From IMG/VR virus record IMGVR_UViG_3300020171_000053, positions 1 to 45,638 of that record: 45,638 nt of DNA; one strand, 5' to 3'. This document shows positions 35,589 to 40,900 of this stretch, piece after piece. The DNA is from a virus. The notes beneath the pieces were generated by a model. It ran no database searches, was not told the DNA's origin, and saw only the letters and a program-made list of their open reading frames with translations. Position numbers and translations under genes: made by a program. Positions within the stretch are counted from its first letter, which is position 1; the number at the start of each line of letters is the position of its first letter.

Positions 35589-36923
35589 ATGAAATATCAA
35601 AGCATATATGACAACCGCAAGTTAGAGGCGTTAGATAACCCTGATAACTACAACAACCAAATACGTCAGGGATGGATGCCGTTTTGGACTAAAAACATGG
35701 CAGAAAATTACGCCATAATTAAGTCAGAGTTTGAGGAAGACAATCGGGATGCGGGTGCATTAACCGGGAGGACGCACCCCGACAATGTGCTACTTTTGGG
35801 TTCGGGGCCGTCGCTTAACGATTTTGAACCGTACTTCAAGGATTGGAAAGGCGATATCATGGTATCGTCGTCGCAGTTGTTGTACTGCGAGGCGTTGGGG
35901 ATTGTACCTAACTACTGCTTCATCATCGACGCTGACCCTACGCAATCCTTTCTCGTAACCGAGGCGAAGACAGAGAACATCACGTTGATTACTCATGCCA
36001 ATATGGACCCTGTTGTACTTAGGGCATGGAAGGGGCCGAAGTATTACTTCCGTATGCACGATCCGGGGGATACGTTTTTCGGTGAGATAATGCCGATGGT
36101 GTACAGCGAGTTTATGGACTTGGAGACCAAGAAGGTATGGCCGGGGATTCACGCTTATGTGTTGAATAGCGGTAACGTGTCGAACACGATGATTGCGGTG
36201 TCTAACTTTTTGGGGTACAAGCGGTCATTTCTGTGCGGAGTAGATTTGGGGTTCCCTAATAGCGACTATCGGTTTATCAACTACAAGCGCGTTGACGGTA
36301 GATACGAGAAGGAAGAGAAGCTCCCGATACCGCCCGCCAAGGTACTTAAGCAAGGCGTGAATGGGGTTCCTACGGATCAGGTAGATTGCTTTTACAAGTA
36401 TTCGACGATGATACTGTGGGGAATGGACTGCCCTAACGTGTACTCATGCAGCCGTGGTATACTTACGGACATACCTTATATTTCTCCTGCTGATGTGATA
36501 GCGTGTCAGGGAGATATAGACGATGAGAAGTATGTTATCCCTAATGAAGAGAAGTATAAGATAGCGCAGACGTATTTGCGGTATCGCGGAATCTACATAA
36601 TGAAAGGTAAAGCGAGGACAAGAACCTTCCCCGCAAGAAACTACGAGAGAACCAAGAAGCGTATAATCCGTTGGATGATCTTAGGCCACAAGATTAAGGG
36701 AACGTATAATCCTCAAGTGAGGAAGAACATCATAAGCCAACTGATGCCTGCGCCGAAGATTAAGTTCCGGTTGTTTATAATCGAGTGGGAGTTCACCCCT
36801 GAGACCACGACGAGGACATGGCTGTCGTACACGGGTATCACGAACAAATACGCCGTTAAGGGGTGGAAGCGGGTCAAGCTGGTTGTCAGATTCAATGTGG
36901 GAAGGTGGTTAAAACTTTGGTAG
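35589..36923 (+). CDS. Maf-like DUF115 glycosyltransferase-type protein
   Basis: A 444-aa protein; ATG at 35589 follows GGGAGGC, while the upstream TTG lacks one. The core is the DUF115 (MAF_flag10/6-hydroxymethylpterin diphosphokinase-like) pattern: VLLLGSGPSLNDFEPY (67-82), DIMVSSSQLLYCEALGI, then IIDADP and a later FLCGVDLGFPNS. Maf proteins of flagellated bacteria transfer pseudaminic or legionaminic acid to Ser/Thr of flagellin. The C-terminal 110 residues are basic and may bind the acceptor. The gene lies just before PseB and PseC homologues, which supports nonulosonic-acid transfer. The acceptor is unknown. Confidence 0.75.
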   Translation: MKYQSIYDNRKLEALDNPDNYNNQIRQGWMPFWTKNMAENYAIIKSEFEEDNRDAGALTGRTHPDNVLLLGSGPSLNDFEPYFKDWKGDIMVSSSQLLYCEALGIVPNYCFIIDADPTQSFLVTEAKTENITLITHANMDPVVLRAWKGPKYYFRMHDPGDTFFGEIMPMVYSEFMDLETKKVWPGIHAYVLNSGNVSNTMIAVSNFLGYKRSFLCGVDLGFPNSDYRFINYKRVDGRYEKEEKLPIPPAKVLKQGVNGVPTDQVDCFYKYSTMILWGMDCPNVYSCSRGILTDIPYISPADVIACQGDIDDEKYVIPNEEKYKIAQTYLRYRGIYIMKGKARTRTFPARNYERTKKRIIRWMILGHKIKGTYNPQVRKNIISQLMPAPKIKFRLFIIEWEFTPETTTRTWLSYTGITNKYAVKGWKRVKLVVRFNVGRWLKLW

Positions 36924-37852
36924 ACAACAAGACTGTGTTCATCAGCGGCTGTGGCTCTCTTGCGAAGGCAATCACTAAGGAACTACTGTACAGCCATCAT
37001 CCCAAGAAGGTGATATTGTTTTCGCGTGATGAAGGTTTGCAAGAGATTGCCAAGAGTGAAATCGACGACAAAAAGGGGGTAATTAGGTATTTCATAGGAG
37101 ATGTAAGGGACAGCGGTAGGTTGGGCATGGCCTTGAGGGGAGTGGACTACGTTATACACACAGCCGCATTAAAGCGGGTAGACACGGTTGAATATAATCC
37201 GATTGAAGCGGTACATACCAACGTGTCAGGAACCGCAAATCTTGTGGCAGCTTGTGTCATAAACGATGTACGGAGGGCGACATTCGTATCCACAGACAAG
37301 GCCGTGCTCCCTATCAACTTCTACGGTATGACTAAGGGGCTTGGGGAGAAGCTATGGCTGGATTCCAACTTCTACAAGCCCATCTTTAATTGTGTGCGCT
37401 ACGGCAACGTAATGGGGTCGAGAGGATCAGTATTACCCTTGTTTGAGAGATGCGCCAAGAACAAGCTACCCTTCCCTATCACCGACGAGAAGATGACACG
37501 ATTTTGGGTCAAGATGGAGGATGCGGTCAAGTTGGTGCTGATGGCCGTAGAGTCAAAGGAGGGATATACTTACGTGCTGAAATCGCCCACGTTCAAGATA
37601 GTTGACTTGGCGAAGGCGATACACGGTAGGGCGCAATTCGACGTAACCGGGATGAGGCCGGGAGAAAAGATGCATGAAGTTCTCATCGGAGCGCATGAAA
37701 CGGGGAGGGTAGAAGACCGCAAGTGGTTCTATGCAATTCAGCCGGAGATCCACTACAGCGAAGAGAAGTGGCCTGCTACAACGTCGATGAAAGAGATGGT
37801 ATCGAGCGAAGGGAATGTTAGTAGAGGGGAGATTAAATCATGGCTTGGATAA
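36917..37852 (+). CDS. PseB-like UDP-GlcNAc 4,6-dehydratase
   Basis: A 311-aa short-chain dehydrogenase. TTG at 36917 with GGAAGGTGG upstream is preferred; a GTG at 36863 is possible. The Rossmann start is VFISGCGSLAKAI, where the usual final Gly is Ala. AALKRVDTVEYNP (84-96) matches the family. The active site reads STDKAVLPINFYGMTK (125-140) with D127, K128, Y136 and K140. RYGNVMGSRGSVLP and MTRFWVKMEDAV are PseB signatures. It would convert UDP-GlcNAc to the 4-keto-6-deoxy-L-altrose-type sugar that feeds PseC. It overlaps the Maf-like gene by 7 bp. Confidence 0.85.
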   Translation: MVDNKTVFISGCGSLAKAITKELLYSHHPKKVILFSRDEGLQEIAKSEIDDKKGVIRYFIGDVRDSGRLGMALRGVDYVIHTAALKRVDTVEYNPIEAVHTNVSGTANLVAACVINDVRRATFVSTDKAVLPINFYGMTKGLGEKLWLDSNFYKPIFNCVRYGNVMGSRGSVLPLFERCAKNKLPFPITDEKMTRFWVKMEDAVKLVLMAVESKEGYTYVLKSPTFKIVDLAKAIHGRAQFDVTGMRPGEKMHEVLIGAHETGRVEDRKWFYAIQPEIHYSEEKWPATTSMKEMVSSEGNVSRGEIKSWLG

Positions 37853-39584: not shown

Positions 39585-40232
39585 ATGCAACTAATTTTGG
39601 ACATAGGGAGTGGGCGAAGTTTACCAGACGTAGATACGGCAATCAAGCTGATAGACGAGGTTATCAAGCGGGACACGAAGAAGCACGAGATAATCTTCAA
39701 GACTCAGTTGTTTGAGTCGGCACCGCCTAACGTACCGTTGAGTCACATTGTCTTTAGGGCTGCGTTTGTAAAGGCAGAGGTGAACGGGTATCATCTTACA
39801 TCTAGCGTCTTTGATAAAGAGAGCTTACGTGTTCTACTGAAATATGATTACGATAGTTGGCCCTTACCCTTCATCAAGATAGCCTGTAGACCTGACCTGT
39901 ATTGGCTGATAGGCGAGATACCCCGAAAGATTCCGGTGTATGTGAGTGGACAACACGATCACCCCGGCATAAATACGGGATTTCGTGGCAAGGGGTATTA
40001 TCCCGATGGTAAGGATATATTTATGGCTTGCGTGCCAGAATATCCGGCTGAACTATCAAAATATCAAAACCGGTGCCATTTATGGATTTCTGACCATACA
40101 GTAGGTTGGGATTTATACAAGAAGTACGAACCAGACATACTAGAAAAGCACGTATGCTTAGAACACAACGACACCAACCCTGATGCGGGAGCGTTCGCTG
40201 TTACCCCATCCGAACTTGAGGCGGTGCTATGA
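39585..40232 (+). CDS. compact NeuB/PseI-like nonulosonic acid synthase (TIM barrel)
   Basis: A 215-aa protein with NeuB-type blocks in order: an N-terminal LDIGSGRSLPDVDTAIKLID, then IIFKTQLF, then PFIKIACRPDLYWLIGEIP, CVPEYPAELSKY, ISDHTVGWDLYKKY and ILEKHVCLEHNDTNPDAGAF. In NeuB/PseI these form the metal- and PEP-binding barrel that condenses PEP with a 6-carbon amino sugar to give a nonulosonic acid. Usual length is about 340 aa. The C-terminal SAF (antifreeze-like) domain is absent, and several barrel parts are shortened. It may be active with a partner, or inactive. It overlaps the acetyltransferase by 4 bp. Confidence 0.75.
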   Translation: MQLILDIGSGRSLPDVDTAIKLIDEVIKRDTKKHEIIFKTQLFESAPPNVPLSHIVFRAAFVKAEVNGYHLTSSVFDKESLRVLLKYDYDSWPLPFIKIACRPDLYWLIGEIPRKIPVYVSGQHDHPGINTGFRGKGYYPDGKDIFMACVPEYPAELSKYQNRCHLWISDHTVGWDLYKKYEPDILEKHVCLEHNDTNPDAGAFAVTPSELEAVL

Positions 40233-40900
40233 TAGTTCAGCCCCTCAGTAAAGACACCGCAATAGAGATTGCCAAGTGGCGCAATGCTTCCCGCGAGTCC
40301 CTTCGCACCGGATGGACAACGGAACTACAGCAAGAGGCGTTCTATGAGGGCAATTTCTTGGGAGACTACAAGTATTGGGAGTTTTGGGAGTTTGCGTCTT
40401 TGGGCAAAGATGAACAGAAGATGCGTCCTCTTGCCACCGGTGGGTTCGTGAACATCGATAAGGATGACGCAGAGATCGCCCTTATCGTTCATCCCCTTGC
40501 ACGTAAGCAAGGGTTCGGTAGTCAATGCATCGAGTGGATCCTGCACGAAGGGTTTGCTAACCTTGGGTACGAAAAGATATGGGGCGAAGTGTACGATTGC
40601 GGGGCCGTTTCGTTCTGGTCTAAGTTTATCGTCAAGTACAACGCAACGCATGTGAGAAAGGGCAAGGTCAAGTATTGGGATTTCAAGGAATGGGGTAGCA
40701 CTATCTTCAGCATATCGCGGGGTGAATATGTCAAGAGAAGGGAAGATCGGGGCGTTTGTGATACTCCTGATAGTGGGAGCGATAATCGGGGCGACAAATC
40801 TGTTAGCTCCGATACACGAGATGGGACACTACCTGGTGGCGGTTCACAACGGCGGGACAGCGACCTTCACGGGCTGGAACAGTACACAACCAACACCTAG
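40229..40900 (+). CDS. GNAT acetyltransferase, PseH-like
   Basis: A 223-aa protein. The N-terminal IEIAKWRNASRESLRTGW matches PseH-type GNATs. The acetyl-CoA loop is ARKQGFGSQCIEWILHEGF (91-109). It would N-acetylate the 4-amino sugar after the PseC-like step. The GNAT domain ends near residue 167. Residues 168-223 (RREDRGVCDTPDSGSDNRGD onward) are low in order and are read over the first 173 bp of the next gene in another frame, so they are probably an overprinted tail. Confidence 0.8.
   Translation: MIVQPLSKDTAIEIAKWRNASRESLRTGWTTELQQEAFYEGNFLGDYKYWEFWEFASLGKDEQKMRPLATGGFVNIDKDDAEIALIVHPLARKQGFGSQCIEWILHEGFANLGYEKIWGEVYDCGAVSFWSKFIVKYNATHVRKGKVKYWDFKEWGSTIFSISRGEYVKRREDRGVCDTPDSGSDNRGDKSVSSDTRDGTLPGGGSQRRDSDLHGLEQYTTNT

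Follow-up and report, generated by a model that had tools for sequence, protein, structure and literature searches.

A nonulosonic-acid-type gene module around the terminase genes of an uncultured phage

Sugar genes on both sides of the terminase genes

We analysed a 45,638-nucleotide stretch of viral DNA (hereafter the window), a single IMG/VR virus record (IMGVR_UViG_3300020171_000053), which carries a set of genes resembling those for the synthesis of nonulosonic acids such as pseudaminic and legionaminic acid. The two ends of the window carry an exact 127-base repeat, which gives a closed circular map of 45,511 bases. Because of this repeat, the sugar genes at 35.6-40.9 kb and at 0.6-2.9 kb form one neighbourhood that flanks the genes for the small and large terminase subunits (TerS and TerL). 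Upstream of TerS and TerL lie, in this order, a Maf-like gene, a PseB-like gene, a small open reading frame (ORF), a PseC-like gene, two small ORFs, a NeuB/PseI-like gene (mini-NeuB), a GNAT gene, a membrane ORF and a patch of reverse-strand ORFs; downstream of them an HNH gene is followed by WbuX/PseA-like, methylase and SpsF-like genes and then by the portal gene. In the list below, CMP and UDP stand for cytidine monophosphate and uridine diphosphate, GlcNAc for N-acetylglucosamine and PLP for pyridoxal phosphate.

35589..36923, + strand: Maf/MptE-like protein, probable CMP-nonulosonate protein glycosyltransferase, 444 amino acids (aa); PF01973, 58.2 bits against a cut-off of 34.6
36917..37852, + strand: PseB-like UDP-GlcNAc 4,6-dehydratase, TTG start; best family TIGR03589, E 5e-94, 315 bits
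38124..39137, + strand: PseC-like PLP aminotransferase, 337 aa; best family TIGR03588, E 7e-95, 318 bits
39585..40232, + strand: mini-NeuB/PseI-like nonulosonate synthase, 215 aa, TIM barrel only; identified by fold and motifs
40229..40900, + strand: GNAT acetyltransferase, PseH-like by position only; PF00583, 29.4 bits
635..1696, + strand: WbuX/PseA-like N-acetyl sugar amidotransferase; TIGR03573, 235.6 bits, above the cut-off of 203.2
1689..2363, + strand: pseudaminic-acid-associated methylase; TIGR03587, 112.3 bits against a cut-off of 112.05, a marginal score
2236..2886, + strand: SpsF-like cytidylyltransferase (CMP activation); PF02348, 87.3 bits, with the motif QARMGSxRLPGK

Seven of these genes, all except the Maf-like one, had been named in an earlier, sequence-only reading of the window. 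Each was found where that reading had placed it, and profile searches gave sound family support to all but one. The genes at 635-2886, which it had treated as lying apart from the others, are indeed present, but on the circular map they belong to the same neighbourhood. The best solved relative of the PseB-like protein is Helicobacter pylori FlaA1/PseB (2gn4, E 2e-70), and alignment to it shows that the STDKA...YxxxK catalytic motif is kept. For the PseC-like protein the best solved relative is PseC (2fn6, E 1e-47); EDASHALGS and FSTHAIKNITTAEGG, which holds the PLP lysine, are kept in the alignment. The GNAT protein matched no PseH-specific family model, and the stretch that encodes its C-terminal ~60 aa is shared with a second, overlapping ORF. 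An SGGKDS PP-loop and paired cysteines are present in the WbuX-like protein. For the cytidylyltransferase the best NCBIfam model is KdsB-like, the PseF model reaching just 28.9 bits against a cut-off of 205.7. Judged by profile comparison, the occurrence of several independent family matches of this kind within one operon is far beyond chance.

The Maf-like gene had been overlooked. A four-sequence profile had Maf (5mu5, E 2e-6) as its first match, with the sialyltransferase CstII second (E 0.08), and a Foldseek search with its low-confidence model placed 5mu5 first, followed by archaeal HPPK/MptE and CstII. PF01973 is the central domain of Maf enzymes and is CstII-like (PMC11339370). The phage protein shares this domain and a GSGPSL motif with the flagellin glycosyltransferase 5mu5, its best match by both profile and fold, but it is shorter (444 aa, compared with a 666-aa chain) and has different flanks. 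It is 39-41% identical to its homologues in two sister phages (G016 and G019), each of which adjoins PseB. On these comparisons the enzyme would probably move a CMP-nonulosonate onto serine or threonine residues of a protein. The sequence-only reading had proposed that the sugar alters host surface glycans or flagella, or decorates virions; the Maf-like gene points more to protein O-glycosylation than to a general change of surface glycans.

A probable synthase reduced to its barrel

Pfam left the NeuB/PseI-like call doubtful (PF03102, 19.8 bits against a cut-off of 22.1), and structure prediction confirmed it. An AlphaFold2 run on seven phage sequences gave a TIM barrel with a predicted local distance difference test score (pLDDT) of 88.5 and a predicted template modelling score of 0.88. 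The best Foldseek matches of this model were SpsE and Campylobacter jejuni PseI. VIA-align gave Z 20.6 and a root mean square deviation of 2.5 over 201 residues to Neisseria meningitidis NeuB (1xuu), and Z 18.3 to PseI (8h2c) compared with 15.9 to KDO8P synthase; its top 50 held only NeuB-, KDO8PS- and DAH7PS-type chains and so provides no evidence against other folds. KxQLF, K98, SVFD, FxKxA, YPA, SDHT and the E and H of EKH are invariant among the seven sequences and align with the canonical NeuB/PseI motifs, including residues that bind phosphoenolpyruvate (PEP) and metal. In the alignment the C-terminal SAF (antifreeze-like) domain is missing from the phage protein, which ends behind the barrel. 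In the cellular NeuB-type enzyme an arginine from the SAF domain contributes to catalysis. Because the predicted fold and the conserved motifs match NeuB and PseI, we regard mini-NeuB as a compact variant of nonulosonate synthase that is likely to be active.

The sequence-only reading had thought that a short-tailed phage carrying so much of this pathway would be rare, and for uncultured phages this was rejected. Scans of IMG/VR for single NeuB, TerL and WbuX proteins, with patterns taken from variable stretches, gave no matches, whereas alignment-based scans worked and found at least 80 WbuX loci, 32 of which, among the matches listed, also have PseB, PseC and NeuB. The mini-NeuB family was found at 28 virus loci. 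Rarity does hold for isolates, since no NeuB or WbuX homologue was found in 50,697 phage records. Counting the window, the 29 mini-NeuB loci hold PseB in 26 cases, GNAT in 27, a cytidylyltransferase in 23, a DegT aminotransferase in 22 and WbuX in 10; since the loci that seeded the family models overlap with those counted, the figures record presence and are not independent tests. When 84,980 genomes of bacteria and archaea were scanned with a mini-NeuB profile, none was found; such a pattern scan may miss divergent copies, but comparable patterns did recover the 28 viral loci.

In many sister loci the place of PseC is taken by a DegT protein of 194-227 aa (~205 aa), which we call mini-PseC. 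The PLP aspartate, the Schiff-base lysine of S...K and a GG are all 100% conserved among 26 distinct mini-PseC sequences. Relatives were found in the cultured Flavobacterium phage immuto (L162) and Synechococcus phage S-SCSM2R (L163) and in huge-phage assemblies including that of a 595-kb uncultured phage (L164), where these half-size aminotransferases are located in other amino-sugar clusters; phage immuto offers a culturable test case for the enzyme. Viruses would provide two natural minimal enzymes, a nonulosonate synthase of 205-215 aa without SAF and a fold-type-I aminotransferase of ~205 aa, which could show what the lost domains do. At one locus (L020:805-1443) a GIY-YIG homing endonuclease gene separates mini-PseC from mini-NeuB in an otherwise contiguous module. 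Six other virus contigs (L030, L077, L079, L080, L086 and L088) have a fuller set of legionaminic type, with a PseB-like protein, a full-length aminotransferase, a hexapeptide acetyltransferase, a NeuC-like epimerase, NeuB of 225-296 aa, WbuX and, in most of them, a cytidylyltransferase. The top PseC match in INPHARED, Pseudomonas phage Y5 (L004), was set aside, since the neighbouring ORFs, at 72-89 kb of the record, resemble sugar operons of the Pseudomonas chromosome and the record is therefore probably contaminated by host DNA.

Association with packaging and virion genes

The virion and packaging genes of the window, and the small ORFs within the sugar block, are as follows.

42897..43496, + strand: TerS; phrog_51, E 5e-12
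43876..45432, + strand: TerL; PF17289, E 6e-5
3797..5623, + strand: P22/SU10-like portal; PF16510, 73.9 bits; phrog_156, 154 bits
6830..7786, + strand: major capsid protein; phrog_9953, 142.8 bits
37840..38127, + strand: small membrane ORF between the PseB-like and PseC-like genes; 95 aa, without a Pfam match
39134..39391, + strand: small ORF inside the sugar block; 85 aa, without a family match

The median distance from mini-NeuB to TerL or portal is 3.2 kb at the 17 mini-NeuB loci where either was recognised. Modules with mini-NeuB or WbuX, taken together, adjoin packaging genes of at least five unrelated sets, namely those with the window's P22-like portal, the terminase of L017, and portals of the phrog_64, T7-like and phrog_12 groups. 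The window's own lineage was sampled by an unbiased, capsid-based scan. WbuX, methylase and SpsF lie between TerL and portal in the window and in L012, L132, L136 and L140-L146, WbuX alone does so in L147, and none of the three is found there in L134, L135 and L137-L139. In a podovirus from Manatee Spring (L002, MW202713, 42.7 kb), a different sugar cassette, comprising a heptosyltransferase-like gene, a glycosyltransferase, a methylase and an aminotransferase, lies immediately upstream of TerL, much as in the window.

Among the near-complete genomes, both sugar blocks are present in the window, G016 and G019, and neither in G044. The three phages with the module differ widely in guanine-plus-cytosine (GC) content (0.476 in the window, 0.549 in G016 and 0.416 in G019), and the GC content of the sugar blocks tracks that of each genome. 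The genes that they have in common are essentially the packaging and virion genes and both sugar blocks, nearly all other non-structural genes having been replaced, and the sugar blocks are about as similar in sequence as TerL, portal and adaptor. Since the sugar blocks are conserved like virion genes despite this divergence, the comparison, which covers four genomes only, suggests that selection acts on them through the virion or the way it is assembled. Nonulosonic acid synthesis in phages is then no longer a matter of one gene taken from a host; it is a module that recurs, is adapted to viruses and keeps company with the genes for packaging and the virion.

The P22/SU10-like portal and adaptor fit the short tail that had been read from the sequence. 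The isolates nearest to the portal are Paenibacillus phages (24% identity), and Phg_2220_C, Lin1244_N and YopX domains are present; together these only hint at a host among the Bacillota. Neither the mini-NeuB scan nor the capsid scan of bacterial and archaeal genomes found a bacterial locus.

Proposed pathway, acceptor and alternatives

On balance, we think that these genes form a compact glycosylation module, with which the phage would make a CMP-nonulosonate and attach it by the Maf-like enzyme to a protein, in all likelihood one of the virion. From the families, folds, motifs, synteny and conservation observed we infer the order of the reactions, the identity of the sugar and the virion acceptor. 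The PseB-like dehydratase would turn UDP-GlcNAc into a UDP-4-keto sugar, the PseC-like aminotransferase would convert this into a 4-amino sugar and GNAT would yield a UDP-2,4-diacetamido-trideoxy hexose. UDP would be removed by host PseG or some other activity. Mini-NeuB would then condense PEP with the freed sugar, and the product would be activated to the CMP-nonulosonate by the SpsF-like enzyme. The WbuX-like protein and the methylase would add acetamidino and methyl groups. The Maf-like enzyme, acting in the cytoplasm as Maf does on flagellin (PMC4065374), would transfer the sugar to serine or threonine, most likely of a virion protein while such proteins are being synthesised. A wider proposal, which we put at a little under even, is that tailed phages have in common a virus-specific, miniaturised pathway, with a half-size NeuB that lacks SAF, often a half-size PseC and no PseG, whose sugar would be put on virion proteins by a Maf-like transferase, and in which mini-NeuB may handle the missing hydrolysis in a new way.

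Several observations weigh against virion glycosylation by a phage-made nonulosonate. No acceptor protein was identified. Virions of this type can do without the sugar, as sister G044 has homologous virion genes but not the module. PF01973 includes pterin kinases as well, and the AlphaFold2 model of the Maf-like protein (pLDDT 49) is too poor to stand alone. The PseB-like and PseC-like proteins score below the equivalog cut-offs of their families (315 against 407.75 bits for TIGR03589 and 318 against 423.5 bits for TIGR03588). A HisF-like partner of the WbuX-like protein was not found in the gene list of the window, where HisH was not searched for as such; a HisF-like gene is present in G016 and G019 and in 36 of the 80 WbuX loci, among the matches listed, and the host could possibly supply an ammonia-delivering HisH/HisF-like partner to the window's enzyme. 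Finally, PseG (TIGR03590) is absent from the window, and none of 40 virus records (the window and 39 related ones) scored above its cut-off. A hidden PseG was sought with a hidden Markov model test and a listing of conserved co-located families, and no family fitted. With PseG absent from all 40 records, the canonical route to CMP-pseudaminic acid is incomplete without the host, and removal of UDP must fall to an enzyme of the host or to an activity of another kind; this consistent absence raises a sharp question for biochemistry. The earlier statement that the phage rebuilds most of that route is supported for a nonulosonic-acid-type pathway with intact catalytic motifs, but not for PseG. Compared with the Campylobacter and Helicobacter pathway (PseB-PseC-PseH-PseG-PseI-PseF), the phage has PseB-like, PseC-like, GNAT, NeuB/PseI-fold synthase and cytidylyltransferase genes in one module, and differs by having no PseG, a 215-aa synthase without SAF, a cytidylyltransferase of SpsF-like type, and PseB and PseC below their equivalog cut-offs.

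With these sub-threshold PseB and PseC scores the sugar could be pseudaminic or another nonulosonic acid; of the label 'pseudaminic/legionaminic-like' it is the nonulosonic-acid type that is supported. That the product is instead some other 4-amino or ulosonic sugar (of legionaminic type, a related amino sugar or an 8-carbon ulosonate) is a possibility we take seriously while leaning against it, and it is compatible with virion glycosylation as well as with the other alternatives. The cytidylyltransferase is SpsF/KdsB-like and not PseF, the mini-aminotransferase of phage immuto lies in a sugar cluster without an annotated NeuB, and the Sps enzymes of Bacillus subtilis form legionaminic acid from UDP-linked precursors (PMC7439481). 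The phage shares with the sps pathway the SpsE fold, an SpsF-type cytidylyltransferase and the UDP-linked route, but it has no SpsG, its synthase is truncated and its PseB-like protein has the tyrosine of an inverting dehydratase. This tyrosine of YxxxK, kept as in PseB/FlaA1 where SpsM of B. subtilis has Met146 (PMC7439481; that these positions correspond to each other is our own reading), weakly favours the inverting, pseudaminic type. The methylase and WbuX would suit pseudaminic and legionaminic derivatives equally.

It is unlikely, in our view, that the target of the Maf-like enzyme is instead a protein of the host, such as flagellin or another surface protein, whose modification during infection would alter how the host behaves or the receptor that rival phages use. 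In favour of this, flagellin is a known substrate of Maf enzymes, and there are documented cases of prophage enzymes tailoring the pseudaminic acid of their host (PMC12053666, PMC6586298). The most similar gene set, that of the flagellin glycosylation islands of Clostridium (PMC13317340), is nearly identical in having Pse genes, a methyltransferase, an acetamidino synthase (PseA) and Maf. Unlike these islands, the phage module is split around the terminase, lacks flagellin genes and PseG, and has a halved synthase. Its genes lie in and around the packaging and virion cluster, away from any early or lysogeny region, and neither flagellin nor export genes were seen. Among phages that differ widely in GC content, the sugar genes show the same degree of conservation as virion genes. 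All matches of the capsid scan were virus contigs, with no prophage among the 84,980 genomes, which argues against long-term lysogenic conversion. Less likely again is that the module tops up or bypasses a nonulosonate pathway of the host, the sugar entering capsule, lipopolysaccharide or cell-wall glycans through host PseG and transferases. The absence of PseG from every record tested makes dependence on host steps likely, and the host would presumably make a related sugar, but a dedicated Maf-like gene adjoins PseB in the sister genomes, and the retention of half-size, virus-type enzymes under selection suggests that the phage makes a product for itself. We give hardly any credence to the idea that a host cluster left these genes behind as decaying remnants, or that they are carried along by chance. 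NeuB is reduced in size with a weak Pfam score, yet its catalytic residues are invariant in seven sequences, as are those of mini-PseC in 26; the family occurs at 28 virus loci, and the module is kept in three divergent sister phages, with a GC content adapted to each.

Nonulosonate genes described in phages so far differ from this module. In Acinetobacter prophages epaA/epaB and O-acetyltransferases tailor host-made nonulosonic acids (PMC12053666, PMC6586298), and pseI is named among the table abbreviations of a marine phage review (PMC6359870); these modify a host-made sugar or are single genes, whereas the window holds nearly the whole route and a transferase. Among 5.39 million open papers 'pseudaminic' and 'auxiliary metabolic' co-occur only in that review, which names just pseI. 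For mycobacteriophages it has been suggested that phage glycosyltransferases modify the virion (e.g. PMC11256854); glycosylation of virions with nonulosonic acids was not met in the searchable literature. Should the virion be the acceptor, a sialic-acid-like coat would cover many uncultured phages and would affect how they adsorb and how they escape the defences of the host.

Three related genes of ~150 aa stand in tandem behind the capsid gene of the window (7799-8263, 8274-8729 and 8792-9268) and belong to one family, which has two copies in G044 and one each in G016 and G019. These may possibly encode head decoration proteins and are candidate acceptors of the glycan. Directly 3' of the GNAT gene, and overlapping it in another frame, lies a membrane ORF (40722-41225) with an HEMGH metalloprotease-like motif, which has a homologue (30-45%) at the equivalent place in L054 (5812-6333). 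Between TerL and WbuX an HNH endonuclease (127-651) is 48% identical to a gene located elsewhere in G044; it is possibly a homing gene and could account for mobility of the block downstream. Four small ORFs on the - strand (41449-42638), one of them helix-turn-helix-like, lie between the sugar block and TerS and form an apparent strand switch in a region that otherwise reads forward.

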